Shown here one piece after another: positions 297 through 14,103 of a stretch of DNA of 64,000 bases; within the stretch, counting starts at the first letter, position 1, and every line of letters starts with the position of its first letter. A program made the position numbers and the translations under genes. Origin of the DNA: Glycomyces harbinensis (GTDB lineage: Bacteria; Actinomycetota; Actinomycetes; Mycobacteriales; Micromonosporaceae); contig NZ_FNAD01000022.1 in assembly GCF_900101745.1 (NCBI RefSeq), positions 1-64,000 on the forward strand, written 5' to 3'. Under the pieces are notes generated by a model. That model saw only the letters and a list, made by a program, of their open reading frames with translations, searched no databases and was not told where the DNA came from.

Positions 297-373
297 GAGG
301 CCCCCATACCCGTTTCAAGGTGTTCATTAGGATTCACGGTGATTATTCTGCTTTACGAAGTTTGGTGAAATCA

Positions 374-1156
374 ATGGCCATTTGGTGGCAAGGGTTGCTC
401 TTCGCTCTCGTGGTGGTCGCGGCGGCCAGCGTCGTCGTGGCGCTGCTCCAGCGTTTCGCTCCGCCGACGACCCGGGGGCACAACAACGAGCTCGGCACGA
501 CGCTGTTCGAGCTGCTGACGGTCCTGTACGCGATCGTGCTGGCATTCGTGCTGATCACGGCGTGGGAGGACAAGAACGAGGCCGGGCACGTGACCTACAA
601 GGAGGCGAACGAGCTGGTCGACGTCTACTGGTCGGCCGCGGCGCTCGAACCCGACCAGCGCGACGACGTGCGCGCGGCGGTGCGGGCCTACACCGACGAG
701 GTGATCGCGGTCGAGTGGCCCGCGATGCGCGACCAGGACCCGATCACCTCGGAGGGCCTGATGCTGCTCGACGCGATGCGGGCGCCGGTCGCGGCGGTGC
801 AGACCGACGAGGACGCGGTCCAGGCGCGCCTGGACACCACGCGGGACGGCGTCCTGTCGGTCGAGGAGTACCGCACGGAGCGGCTCTTCCAGGCGCAGCG
901 CGGGCTGGGGCCGGTCATGTGGACCGTGCTGGTGCCCGGGGCGCTCCTGGTGTTCGCGGTGATGCTCACGCTAGGCACGCCGACCCGCAAGTACCAGTAC
1001 GTGCTGGTGGGGCTCATCTCCGGGATGGTCGCCCTGATGCTGTTCGCGGCGTACCAGCTCGAGTACCCGTACAGCCGCAGCGGGGCCACCGACCCGGCCG
1101 CCTACGAGGCGGCGATCGACCGGTTCGACGTGATCGATGAGCAGTATACGCATTGA
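374..1156 (+). CDS. DUF4239 (bestrophin-like domain) membrane protein
   Basis: A 260-residue protein with the layout of the DUF4239 family. An N-terminal membrane helix (residues about 5-25) is followed by the family segment beginning RGHNNELG and a second helix with FELLTVLYAIVLAFVLI. A soluble acidic middle region follows, and two helices lie near the C-terminus (PVMWTVLVPGALLVFAVMLT and YVLVGLISGMVALMLFAAY). The ATG at 374 is preferred because it places the first helix at the N-terminus; an in-frame ATG at 320 would add 18 polar residues. The gene is divergent from the proline-rich protein and sits about 90 nt before the encapsulin gene. The molecular function of the family is not established. 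Confidence 0.75.
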   Translation: MAIWWQGLLFALVVVAAASVVVALLQRFAPPTTRGHNNELGTTLFELLTVLYAIVLAFVLITAWEDKNEAGHVTYKEANELVDVYWSAAALEPDQRDDVRAAVRAYTDEVIAVEWPAMRDQDPITSEGLMLLDAMRAPVAAVQTDEDAVQARLDTTRDGVLSVEEYRTERLFQAQRGLGPVMWTVLVPGALLVFAVMLTLGTPTRKYQYVLVGLISGMVALMLFAAYQLEYPYSRSGATDPAAYEAAIDRFDVIDEQYTH

Positions 1157-1249: not shown

Positions 1250-2674
1250 ATGACCGATGCCGTTGTCGAAAGCACTCCCGCAGTACCTGAGCAGGCCGCG
1301 AACGGGCAGCACCCCGCCACCAGCCTCAGCACCGCCGCAGCGCGGAACCTCGCCACCACCACCAAGTCCGTCCCGCAGATGCAGGAGATCACCTCCCGGT
1401 GGCTCCTGCGGGTCCTGCCGTGGGTCCAGACACAGGGCGGCGCCTACCGCGTCAACCGGCGCCTGACGCACACCGTGGGAGACGGCCGGGTCGAGTTCAC
1501 CACCGAGGGCGACGCCGTGCGCGTCATCCCGACCGAGCTGGGCGAGATCGCGCAGCTGCGCGGGATCGACGACGAGGAGGTGCTGTCCGCGCTCGCCGAC
1601 CGCTTCGAGCAGCGCGAGGTCGGCGCCGGGGAGCGCATCGCCGAAGAGGGCCGCCCGGTCGACGGGATCCACCTCATCGCCCACGGCCGCGCCGAGCAGT
1701 TCGGCTCCGGCCCGTTCGGGGACCAGTCCTCGCTCGGCCGCCTGGTCGACGGCGACCACTTCGGCGAGGAGCTCCTCACCGAGGACGCGCCGACCTGGGA
1801 CCACGACGTCATCGCCGCGACCCCGATCACCGTCCTCACCCTCCCGGCCGCCGCGGCGGCCGAGCTGGTCGACCGCATCCCGGCGCTCGCCGCGCACCTG
1901 GAGCGGTACAAGGCGGGCCGGTCGGCGAAGGCCAACAAGCACGGCGAGGCCGCCATCGCCATCTCGGCGGGCCACACCGGCGAACCGGACCTGCCGACCA
2001 CGTTCGTCGACTACGACCTGGCGCCGCGCGAGTACGAGCTCTCCGTGGCGCAGACGGTCCTGCGGGTCCACACCCGCGTCGCCGACCTCTACAACCAACC
2101 GATGAACCAGATGGAGCAGCAGCTGCGGCTCACCGTGGAGGCCCTTCGCGAACAGCAGGAGGACCAGCTGCTGAACAACCGCGAGTTCGGGCTCCTGCAC
2201 AACGCGGCGCTGAGCCAGCGCATCCCGACCCGCTCGGGCGCGCCCACGCCCGACGACCTGGACGACCTGCTGAGCCGCCGCCGCGACACGCAGTTCATGC
2301 TCGCCCACCCGAAGGCGATCGCCGCGTTCGGACGCGAGCTGAACAAGCGCGGCCTGTACCCGACGCCGACGCTCGTCGAGGGCCGCGAGGTCCCCGCCTG
2401 GCGCGGCGTCCCGATCCTGCCGTGCAACAAGATCCCGATCAGCTCGGCGCGCACGACTTCGATCATCGCCATGCGGACCGGCGAGGACAACCAGGGCGTC
2501 GTCGGCCTGCGCCAGGTCGGGCTGCCCGACGAGTACGAGCCGGGCCTTTCGGTGCGGTTCATGGGGATCGACGAGAAGGCCGTCATGTCCTACCTGGTCA
2601 GCGCCTACTACTCGGTCGCGGTCCTGGTCCCCGACGCGCTCGGCGTCCTCGAGCACGTCGAGATCGGCCGCTAG
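1250..2674 (+). CDS. eshA: family 2B encapsulin shell protein (EshA-type)
   Basis: A 474-residue protein matching family-2B encapsulins: an HK97-fold nanocompartment shell protein with an inserted cyclic-nucleotide-binding-like domain. Residues 1-60 form the N-arm. The segment with [13 protein letters not shown] follows, then the cNMP-like domain (about 100-225, with [10 protein letters not shown]). The shell core (about 226-474) carries the family hallmarks [33 protein letters not shown] and [22 protein letters not shown]. The phosphate-binding cassette has Gly-Glu but lacks the Arg that contacts cAMP in classical domains (TWDHDV instead). The ATG at 1250 is chosen because GAGGAA ends 9 nt upstream; the GTG at 1241 overlaps that site. 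An extended -10 (TGCTAGAT, 1207-1214) may be its promoter. First gene of the shell-cargo-ispH cluster. Confidence 0.93.
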
Positions 2675-2684
2675 GCCCCGAGGC

Positions 2685-2724
2685 TCCGGGGCGGCCGCGA
2701 ACGCACCACCGCGGCCGCCCCGGA
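2685..2724 (+). terminator. strong hairpin between shell and cargo genes
   Basis: A perfect 15-bp inverted repeat (TCCGGGGCGGCCGCG and its complement) with a 10-nt loop starts 11 nt after the shell stop codon. It has no U-tract, as is common for terminators in high-GC actinomycetes. It could partly end transcription or protect the shell mRNA 3' end, which would make shell protein more abundant than cargo. Confidence 0.65.
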
Positions 2725-2785
2725 CCCGTACGACGCGCCCATCGATGCCGTTCCCTCCGAACGACCTGCCGCCCAGGGAGGCCCC

Positions 2786-3811
2786 ATGACCGTGCTGACC
2801 GACCGCTTCAGTGCCAACCACACCGCCGAACGCGACGCCATCGACGCCGGGCTGCGGAACGCCGCGGCCAGGCTCCCCGCCCCCGCCGCGCGGATCGCGG
2901 CCTACCACTTCGGATGGACCGACGAGGCGGGCGAACCCGCGCACGCCAGCTCGGGCAAGGCCCTGCGCCCGCTGCTGACGCTCCTGGCGGCGAAGACCGT
3001 CTCGGGCGACTGGCGCTCGGCCGTCCCGGCCGCCGTCGCGGTCGAGCTGGTCCACAACTTCTCCCTCATCCACGACGACATCATCGACCGCGACTGCCTG
3101 CGGCGACACCGCCCGACCGCGTGGAAGGTCTACGGGGTCAACGACGCGATCCTCGTCGGCGACGCCCTGCACGCGCTCGCGTTCGAGGTGATCGCCGAGG
3201 CCGGCGGCGACCGGGCACCGGCCGCCACGGGCCTGCTCGCCCAGACCGTGCGGGCCCTCATCGAGGGGCAGCTCGCCGACACCCGCTTCGAGGAGCGCGA
3301 CCATGTCGCGCTCGACGAGTGCGTGGCCATGTCGGAGGCCAAGACCGCCTCGCTCATGGGCTGCGCGACCGCGCTCGGGGCCCTGTTCGGCGGCGGCACG
3401 CCGCAGCAGGTCGACGCCCTGCGGGACTTCGGGTGCCGCCTCGGGCTGGCCTTCCAGCACGTGGACGACCTGCTCGGGATCTGGGGCGACCCGGACGTCA
3501 CCGGCAAGGCCGTCTACTCGGACCTGCGCAACCGCAAGAAGTCGCTGCCGGTGACCGCCGCGCTCGGCTCGGGCCGCCGGGAGGCGGCCGAGCTCGCGAG
3601 CCTCTACGGCGCCGCCGGGCAGTTGAGCGACGCCGAACTGCACCGGGCCGCCGAACTCGTGGAGGCCTGCGGCGGCAGGGAGGCGAGCCAGAGCGCGGCC
3701 GCGTCCCTCACCGAGGCGGCCGCCGGCGTCCTCATGGCGCAGCGCCTCCGGGGCGAAGCGGTCGAGGAGCTCACCAGTCTGGCCGCGAGCACGGTCGGCC
3801 GGGTCTGGTGA
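2786..3811 (+). CDS. family 2 encapsulin cargo, polyprenyl diphosphate synthase-like
   Basis: A 341-residue trans-isoprenyl diphosphate synthase homologue of the type linked to family-2B encapsulins. The first Asp-rich motif is LIHDDIIDRD (D97, D98, D101). The second is degenerate, HVDDLLGIWGDP (D227, D228), followed by YSDLRNRKKSLPV, a signature shared with other encapsulin-associated members. It probably condenses allylic diphosphates with IPP inside the shell; product length cannot be read from the sequence. The N-terminus before the catalytic fold (AAYHFGW at residue 39) is short, leaving about 25 residues for a shell-targeting segment. A GGGAGG site lies before the ATG. The stop overlaps the ispH start by 4 nt. 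Confidence 0.88.
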   Translation: MTVLTDRFSANHTAERDAIDAGLRNAAARLPAPAARIAAYHFGWTDEAGEPAHASSGKALRPLLTLLAAKTVSGDWRSAVPAAVAVELVHNFSLIHDDIIDRDCLRRHRPTAWKVYGVNDAILVGDALHALAFEVIAEAGGDRAPAATGLLAQTVRALIEGQLADTRFEERDHVALDECVAMSEAKTASLMGCATALGALFGGGTPQQVDALRDFGCRLGLAFQHVDDLLGIWGDPDVTGKAVYSDLRNRKKSLPVTAALGSGRREAAELASLYGAAGQLSDAELHRAAELVEACGGREASQSAAASLTEAAAGVLMAQRLRGEAVEELTSLAASTVGRVW

Positions 3812-4785
3812 CCGCGGTCCGCCGGGTGCTCCTGCCCGCGCCGCGGTCGTTCTGCGCCGGGGTGGAGCGGGCGATCGAGATCGTGGAGCGGCTCCTGGAG
3901 CAGCACGGCCCGCCCGTGTACGTGCGCAACCAGATCGTCCACAACACCCATGTGGTGGCCGACCTGGAGTCGCGGGGCGCGGTGTTCATCGCGGAGCTGG
4001 ACGAGGTCCCCGAGCACGCCGTGGTGGTCTTCAGCGCCCACGGGGTGGCCCCGGCGGTCGAACGCGAAGCGGCCGAGCGGGGCCTGGACGCGGTCGACGC
4101 GACCTGCCCGCTGGTGGCGAAGGTCCACGCCGAGGCGAAGCGGGCGGCCGACGCGGGGGACACGGTGATCCTCATCGGGCACGAGGGCCACGAGGAGGTC
4201 GTCGGAACGCTGGGGGTCGCGCCCGAGCGGACGGTGCTCGTCGAGAGCGCCGCGGCCGTGCCGGCCTTGGAGGTCGACGACGCCGCGAAGGTCACGTACC
4301 TGAGCCAGACCACGCTGTCGGTGACCGAGGTGGAGCAGATCGCCGGGGCGCTGAAGGACCGCTTTCCGAACATCAAGGGGCAAGGCGCCGAAGACATCTG
4401 CTACGCCACCAGCAACCGCCAGGCGGCGGTCGCCGCGGTGGTGGCGGAGGCGGACCTGGTCCTGGTGGTGGGCTCGGCGAACTCCTCGAACTCGAACCGC
4501 CTGGTGGAGCTGGCGGCCGAGGCGGGCGTGGCGGCCCACCTGATCGAGGACGCCGGGCAGATCGAGCCGGCGTGGATCGAGGGCGCGCGGACGATAGCGG
4601 TGACGGCCGGGGCGTCGGCGCCGCCGGCGCTGGTGGACGAGGTCGTGGCCGCGATCGGTGCGACGGGCCCGGTCGAGGTCGTGGAGCGGCCGGTGACCGA
4701 GGAGACGCAGGAGTTCCTGCTCCCCCAGCGGCTCCGGTCAGACGATCGGCGAAGGCTCGGATCGGCCGGCGCCCGCGACGAGTGA
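3808..4785 (+). CDS. ispH: 4-hydroxy-3-methylbut-2-enyl diphosphate reductase IspH
   Basis: A 325-residue protein for the last step of the MEP pathway, converting HMBPP to IPP and DMAPP with a [4Fe-4S] cluster. The three cluster cysteines are C16 (RSFCAGV), C100 (DATCPLV) and C198 (EDICYATSNRQ). Substrate-binding histidines are in VHNTHV, SAHGV and GHEGHEE, and the SQTTLS and SANSSNS motifs are intact. The GTG start at 3808 overlaps the TGA of the cargo gene (GTGA), so the two are translationally coupled. That ties supply of C5 units directly to the prenyl synthase cargo. No other MEP-pathway gene is in the window. The last 25 residues form a charged tail beyond the usual end. Confidence 0.95.
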   Translation: MTAVRRVLLPAPRSFCAGVERAIEIVERLLEQHGPPVYVRNQIVHNTHVVADLESRGAVFIAELDEVPEHAVVVFSAHGVAPAVEREAAERGLDAVDATCPLVAKVHAEAKRAADAGDTVILIGHEGHEEVVGTLGVAPERTVLVESAAAVPALEVDDAAKVTYLSQTTLSVTEVEQIAGALKDRFPNIKGQGAEDICYATSNRQAAVAAVVAEADLVLVVGSANSSNSNRLVELAAEAGVAAHLIEDAGQIEPAWIEGARTIAVTAGASAPPALVDEVVAAIGATGPVEVVERPVTEETQEFLLPQRLRSDDRRRLGSAGARDE

Positions 4786-4876: not shown

Positions 4877-4906
4877 GCCCGGCCGCGCATGGCGCGGCCG
4901 GGCTTT
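4877..4906. terminator. bidirectional terminator after ispH
   Basis: A perfect 12-bp stem (GCCCGGCCGCGC) with a 3-nt loop followed by TTT on the plus strand. It lies between convergent ispH and the hydrolase gene. Confidence 0.85.
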
Positions 4907-14056: not shown

Positions 14057-14103
14057 GACACGACCGCGGCCCCGGGCTCTGAGCCCGGGGCCGCGGTCGT
14101 GTC
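14057..14103. terminator. very long bidirectional hairpin
   Basis: A perfect 23-bp inverted repeat around a single central T, between the convergent Mrr-like gene and the HtrA-like gene. Arm begins GACACGACCGCGGCCCCGG. It probably terminates the regulator/protease operon on the minus strand. Confidence 0.85.

Follow-up and report, generated by a model that had tools for sequence, protein, structure and literature searches.

Which enzyme does a Family 2B encapsulin enclose when its shell gene is followed on the same strand by genes for a polyprenyl synthase (PT) and a second IspH? The question is raised by the first 64,000 nucleotides (the window) of contig NZ_FNAD01000022.1 of Glycomyces harbinensis (RefSeq assembly GCF_900101745.1), where an earlier note, made from the window alone, proposed that the shell packages the PT. 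The window begins at the start of its contig (C22) in a genome of 6.17 Mb and 35 contigs (G000). We report here that the locus, judged by gene content, belongs to the Family 2B terpenoid type, with a terpene cyclase (TC) and a PT, and is conserved in Glycomyces. In the reading we favor with moderate confidence, the shell encloses the TC, and the PT and the second IspH supply substrate from outside. The TC was not visible to the earlier reader because it is encoded on another contig. The genes that carry the argument are as follows:

1250..2674, + strand: Family 2B encapsulin shell gene, start ATG 1250 with GAGG upstream, alternative start GTG 1241
1613..1873, + strand: cNMP (cyclic nucleotide)-binding-like domain within the shell protein (PF00027, residues 125-211 counted from GTG 1241)
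2786..3811, + strand: IdsB-like polyprenyl (prenyl diphosphate) synthase (PF00348, 197.9 bits; motifs DDIID and DDLLGIWGD)
3808..4785, + strand: second ispH, encoding 4-hydroxy-3-methylbut-2-enyl diphosphate (HMBPP) reductase (TIGR00216, 300.4 bits, cut-off 187.85; LytB, 312.8 bits)

The shell protein, of a virus-derived kind, was assigned to Family 2B by profile search (758.9 bits to NF041163, encap_f2b, cut-off 400; 460 bits to PF19307) and by its cNMP-binding-like insert, and its closest PDB match is the 2B shell 9bhu. Residues 4-313 of the window IspH align with the solved IspH 3zgl, and its TIGR00216 score and conserved blocks identify it as IspH. The PT stop codon (TGA, 3809-3811) and the ispH start codon (GTG, 3808-3810) overlap as GTGA. 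Scores and coordinates thus bear out the earlier description of a Family 2B shell, a polyprenyl synthase, and ispH on one strand, the last two joined by a GTGA overlap. The genome encodes two ispH genes and three PF00348 enzymes, so the window ispH is a second copy; the other lies on contig C35.

The arrangement was compared across 22 Glycomyces genomes, including that of the window. All 22 contain one strong 2B shell and exactly two ispH genes, and in 21 the shell, PT, and second ispH genes are contiguous and co-oriented; the arrangement is therefore not due to chance. In the remaining genome (G007), PT and ispH are separated by a contig break: the PT runs off the end of a 3,731-base contig, and the second ispH is on a different contig, about 140 bases from its end. 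With ispH starts placed by alignment to the window protein, the PT-ispH junction in 21 genomes, including that of the window, is of the GTGA type in 9, another overlap or read-on in 5, and a gap of 20 to 154 nucleotides (nt) in 7. In three loci (L123, L131, and L137, from G001, G016, and G014, respectively), the usual stop of the PT is missing and its reading frame, different from that of ispH, runs 127 to 358 nt beyond the ispH start, as a genuine C-terminal overlap or a frameshift.

The sole PF19086 cyclase of the genome lies at 57062-58762 of contig C6, which is 59,463 bases long, and its frame is open at the contig end. Its strand and position are as expected if the end of C6 abuts the start of the window, and the two ends probably adjoin. 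The protein has two PF19086 matches, with the motifs DDHF, NDLFSYERE, DDYY, and NDVCSYHKE, and carries the linker motif GPNGVGTSGAR at residue 343. This motif resembles the consensus GPTGLGTSAAR, which PMC8346489 suggests as a targeting sequence. Two cyclase domains joined by such a linker place the protein with the cargo TCs that resemble geosmin synthase (GS-like); terpene cyclases are among the encapsulin cargo treated as studied in PMC12407261. A C-terminal repeat of the linker motif was not found in this TC, whose C terminus is cut by the contig end. A two-domain TC lies upstream of the shell gene in all 20 genus loci that are long enough to display it (the window locus and G007 are cut short), and the TC of one relative (G003, locus L134) matches the germacradienol/geosmin synthase 5dw7 with 533 bits. 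The terpenoid setting that the earlier note recognized is thus reinforced, with a PT, a second ispH, and, in relatives, a cyclase upstream of the shell.

Of 573 shell relatives in a genome scan, the 80 best were kept, 78 of them from outside Glycomyces, with flanks of up to 10 kb that contig ends shortened in several cases. Scored by one search pattern and with duplicate loci excluded, the cargo-type GPxGLGT-like motif occurs in shell-bearing loci in 32 of the 38 TC matches that are GS-like, in 18 of the 20 that are 2-methylisoborneol-like, in none of 72 PT matches, and in none of 38 IspH matches. The sequence features known from 2B cargo therefore point to the cyclase without excluding the PT. 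In the scheme we propose, the two-domain, geosmin-synthase-like TC encoded upstream of the shell would be recruited through its GPNGVGTSGAR linker. IspH would convert HMBPP to isopentenyl and dimethylallyl diphosphate (IPP and DMAPP), from which the PT would make a C15-C20 prenyl diphosphate that passes through the shell to the enclosed cyclase. PT and IspH are seen as a substrate-supply module because PT-ispH pairs, often with dxs or ispG, also occur without a nearby shell. In a more elaborate version, IspH and the PT would be attached to the outer surface of the TC-loaded shell, where HMBPP would be turned into prenyl diphosphate that goes straight through the pores to the cyclase, and the recurrence of ispH would reflect selection for this channel rather than for co-expression alone; we regard this version as improbable.

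The PT itself is the main competitor for the interior. In this alternative, which we hold to be possible though clearly less probable, the shell would package the PT, with IspH co-expressed or docked at the shell, as a compartmentalized prenyl-diphosphate factory. Wherever both are readable (21 genus genomes), the PT gene comes immediately after the shell gene, with ispH next in line, and the window PT scores 424.7 bits against NF041169, the NCBIfam model of the family 2 encapsulin cargo polyprenyl transferase. This is below the cut-off of 450, whereas a Stackebrandtia PT reaches 466.1 bits and a Streptomyces PT fragment 453.2. Andreas and Giessen (2021, PMC8346489) describe for 2B PTs a disordered N-terminal domain of 50 to 100 residues, suggested to serve in loading. 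Unlike these, the window PT has no such domain in its predicted structure (mean predicted local distance difference test [pLDDT] of 92.2 from a 25-row alignment). It is weak in residues 1-10 (average, 56) and the last block only; the blocks that follow residue 10 average 90 to 96, and helices begin at residue 6. In the modeled shell-linked PT of Streptomyces torulosus (L072), in contrast, residues 1-60 have pLDDT values below 50. Neither a loading-type segment nor the cargo-type motif is thus apparent in the window PT, and the PT-ispH pairs in fetched regions that show no shell also speak against the PT as cargo.

N-terminal length complicates this argument. The distance from the PT start to the GKxxRP block was measured from heuristic start picks, which are plainly wrong for L017, L035, L046, L059, and L114. 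It is 51 to 57 residues for 21 of the 22 Glycomyces PTs (G007 was excluded for a run of N) and 33 to 74 residues in complete PT genes with no shell match in the fetched stretch. Several observations weigh against the TC as cargo. In loci of Streptosporangium, Catellatospora, and Micromonospora with no cyclase match, the shell-linked PTs have 58 to 65 residues before GKxxRP (L016, 61; L027, 60; L028, 58; L031, 65; L042, 60), and Stackebrandtia L022 has the order shell-PT-ispH, likewise with no cyclase match nearby. In such loci the PT is, by sequence, the best visible cargo candidate, so that a short N terminus may not bar loading and the PT of the window keeps its candidacy; these comparisons lowered our confidence in the TC as cargo and raised that in the PT. 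In addition, the TCs of two genus relatives score 1096.7 (G003, L134) and 1119.3 bits against NF041168 (f2_encap_cargo3), under the cut-off of 1200. The motif is absent, by the search pattern used, from 6 of the 38 GS-like TC matches, and the proposed junction of C6 with the window rests on strand and position between contigs that are not joined in the assembly. Finally, the nearest named equivalog of the window PT is the geranylgeranyl diphosphate (GGPP) synthase IdsB (NF045549, 314.8 bits, under a cut-off of 475). Geosmin synthases use farnesyl diphosphate, so the PT may feed something else. We nevertheless retain the enclosed TC as the preferred reading; the earlier proposal of a packaged PT keeps its support from gene adjacency and from an N terminus whose shortness does not exclude it, and it loses ground to the missing disordered segment, the placement of the motif in the TC, and the PT-ispH pairs without a shell.

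Whether the three genes form one transcription unit bears on a further alternative, in which the shell and PT-ispH are two adjacent units and PT-ispH, a mere neighbor of a TC shell, serves another isoprenoid product. Two hairpins are relevant:

2685..2724, + strand: hairpin after the shell stop codon, with a perfect 15-bp stem (14 G-C pairs and one T-A) and no T-run
4877..4903, no strand assigned: 12-bp hairpin between ispH and a convergent hydrolase gene, a possible end of transcription

The 111-nt gap between shell and PT folds at -55.8 kcal/mol (z, -3.25 versus dinucleotide shuffles), and 18 of 21 genus gaps contain a perfect stem of at least 9 bp, which does not always lie beside the shell stop. 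Just 11 of 19 folded genus gaps reach a z of -2 or lower versus mononucleotide shuffles, so in several genomes the whole gap is no stabler than its base composition predicts. The window contains 14 perfect hairpins of at least 11 bp, versus 0 to 1 in four Markov sequences; the longest (14057-14103) is a 22-bp inverted repeat with a 3-base loop. Scans for consensus promoters and T-run terminators returned nothing at these genes. The shell-PT hairpin could terminate transcription, attenuate it and so set the ratio of shell to enzyme, or stabilize an mRNA end, and because of its strength a single even transcript is doubtful. Of the operon proposed in the earlier note, contiguity, co-orientation, and conservation stand, and a single even transcript across it does not stand as firmly; co-expression is inferred.

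In favor of two separate units are the hairpin in most genus genomes, the second ispH genes with a PT in fetched regions that show no shell, and the likeness of the PT to a GGPP synthase while the TC resembles geosmin synthase. Against them, the shell-PT gap is only 6 to 8 nt, with no hairpin, in G012 and G021, and ispH stays beside the shell in the genus and in part of the family. For the latter, 101 genomes of the same family were sampled, of which 45 carry a 2B shell, 39 of them outside Glycomyces. Among these 39, ispH lies within 10 kb of the shell in 12, on the same strand in 10. All 12 belong to the 15 genomes with at least two ispH genes, and linkage is found in none of the 24 with one or none. 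One family genome with a shell (G082; about 10.4 Mb; completeness, 100) has no LytB match and may use a different route to isoprenoids. Of the 56 shell-less family genomes, 18 were tested, drawn from 20 listed with two incomplete ones excluded; 10 have a second ispH, which weighs against a shell-specific role. We judge the two-unit alternative to be unlikely, and less probable than a packaged PT.

The link between shell and ispH recurs in other actinomycete families. Among the 78 non-Glycomyces loci, ispH is present in the fetched flanks of 15, every time with a PT. These are 15 of the 27 loci not placed in the Streptomycetaceae (L047 among them is also a [Kitasatospora]), as against none of the 51 placed in that family. 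An additional shell-ispH locus was found in Nonomuraea gerenzanensis (L007). Seven of the 16 non-genus loci with both genes also contain dxs and/or ispG (L007, L017, L036, L050, L073, L081, and L084). Fifteen further loci with a second ispH were extended, and one of them (L221) turned out to contain a shell; in the 14 others, in stretches of up to 20 kb, a PT occurs in 11 and dxs and/or ispG in 10. The possibility, named in the earlier note, that ispH is always unlinked from the shell in relatives is refuted by its linkage in 21 of 22 genus genomes and its recurrence elsewhere.

Two IspH trees were computed, each with nineteen duplicate rows excluded. The shell-linked IspH proteins of Glycomyces form one clade of 22 rows (100/100 support), a lineage separate from that of five Nonomuraea-type shell-linked rows, which form their own clade (100/100). 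Shell linkage requires 6 changes on the second IspH tree, at least 4 of them forced by strong branches, and a single clade of all 39 shell-linked rows, a group set by linkage, was rejected (approximately unbiased test, p-AU = 1.7e-37). On this evidence, ispH became linked to 2B shells on more than one occasion, or became linked and was lost several times. The first tree contains a 40-row group (99/91) made up of 38 rows classed as housekeeping, L206, and L210_18202. The second tree was computed without three very long rows, and on it the same 40 rows need 2 changes, 1 of them forced by strong branches. Very divergent IspH-like genes, 35 to 40% identical to the window IspH, lie at L208 8234-9124, L209 4995-5858, and L210 1378-2286, 3.5 to 16 kb from another ispH copy.

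IspH has an oxygen-sensitive cluster, and together with its linkage to the shell this would suit a role as cargo shielded from oxygen in the interior. A C-terminal extension was not found, however: from FCAG to the stop, the shell-linked copies span 296 to 321 residues and the 38 copies classed as housekeeping, a label taken largely from the first tree, span 302 to 320. At most 14 residues precede FCAG in the window IspH in its gene context, starts being ambiguous in some relatives. With neither a tail nor, in its 38 matches, the cargo-type motif, IspH was set aside as a cargo candidate; we consider it very unlikely to be enclosed.

The locus belongs with known systems in most respects. Like the Family 2B TC/PT operons described in PMC8346489 and PMC12407261, it combines a 2B shell with a cNMP-binding-like insert, a cyclase, and a polyprenyl synthase, and like most 2B systems it has one shell gene, two-shell operons amounting to 21% (PMC12407261). 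It differs from the TC/PT operons described there in the second ispH right after the PT, genus-wide. The kind of system is already known, since published PT systems often carry terpenoid precursor genes (PMC8346489); ispH is not named in the text searched, and the supplement of PMC8346489 may already include it. No paper on a native encapsulin-IspH link was found by title or abstract start in the openly licensed literature. In Streptomyces 2B PT systems (e.g., L037-L089), the shell is likewise followed by an IdsB-like PT, 50 to 54% identical to the window PT over the matched part. In several of these the PT differs in being extended at its N terminus (by 60 disordered residues in L072; up to 119 residues before GKxxRP by the heuristic starts), and the systems have no ispH in the fetched flanks. 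Loci of Nonomuraea, Planotetraspora, and Sinosporangium (L007, L055, L079, L084, and L090) share the shell, a GS-like TC, a PT, and a second ispH; L007 and L084 also contain ispG, and L007 contains dxs as well. They differ in gene order (PT-ispH-shell, then TC), in a PT of another subfamily (about 30% identity), and in the clade of their IspH. Shell-less PT-ispH(-dxs-ispG) clusters (e.g., L208, L209, and L219) likewise place an IdsB-like PT beside a second IspH and differ in having no shell match in stretches of up to 20 kb.

The gene upstream of the shell encodes a further conserved neighbor:

320..1156, + strand: bestrophin-like protein gene (PF14023, 176.6 bits), upstream of the shell gene

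It adjoins the shell gene in all but one of the 22 Glycomyces genomes, and its product is a possible functional partner. A bestrophin-like gene is also present in 5 of the 78 non-genus shell loci (L036, L050, L061, L086, and L092), at 25 to 31% identity. Positions 1-320 of the window contain GC-rich short-unit repeats at the contig start, which are also found at the end of C6 (L178). Read on the minus strand, the repeats would give a protein with PHPP repeats and a signal-like N terminus, antisense to a glycine-rich frame in which the cyclase continues, with no stop, up to the end of C6.

The cargo of PT-type and TC/PT-type 2B encapsulins is called putative in PMC12407261. Glycomyces offers a clean natural case, with one shell gene, a motif-bearing TC upstream of it where the locus is readable, and a PT with no loading segment. 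The paralogues of methylerythritol phosphate (MEP)-pathway genes (ispH, dxs, and ispG) beside 2B loci extend this beyond the genus: because dxs and/or ispG accompany 7 of 16 shell-ispH loci and shell-linked IspH is not a single clade, the provision of substrate seems to be a recurrent element of these systems.

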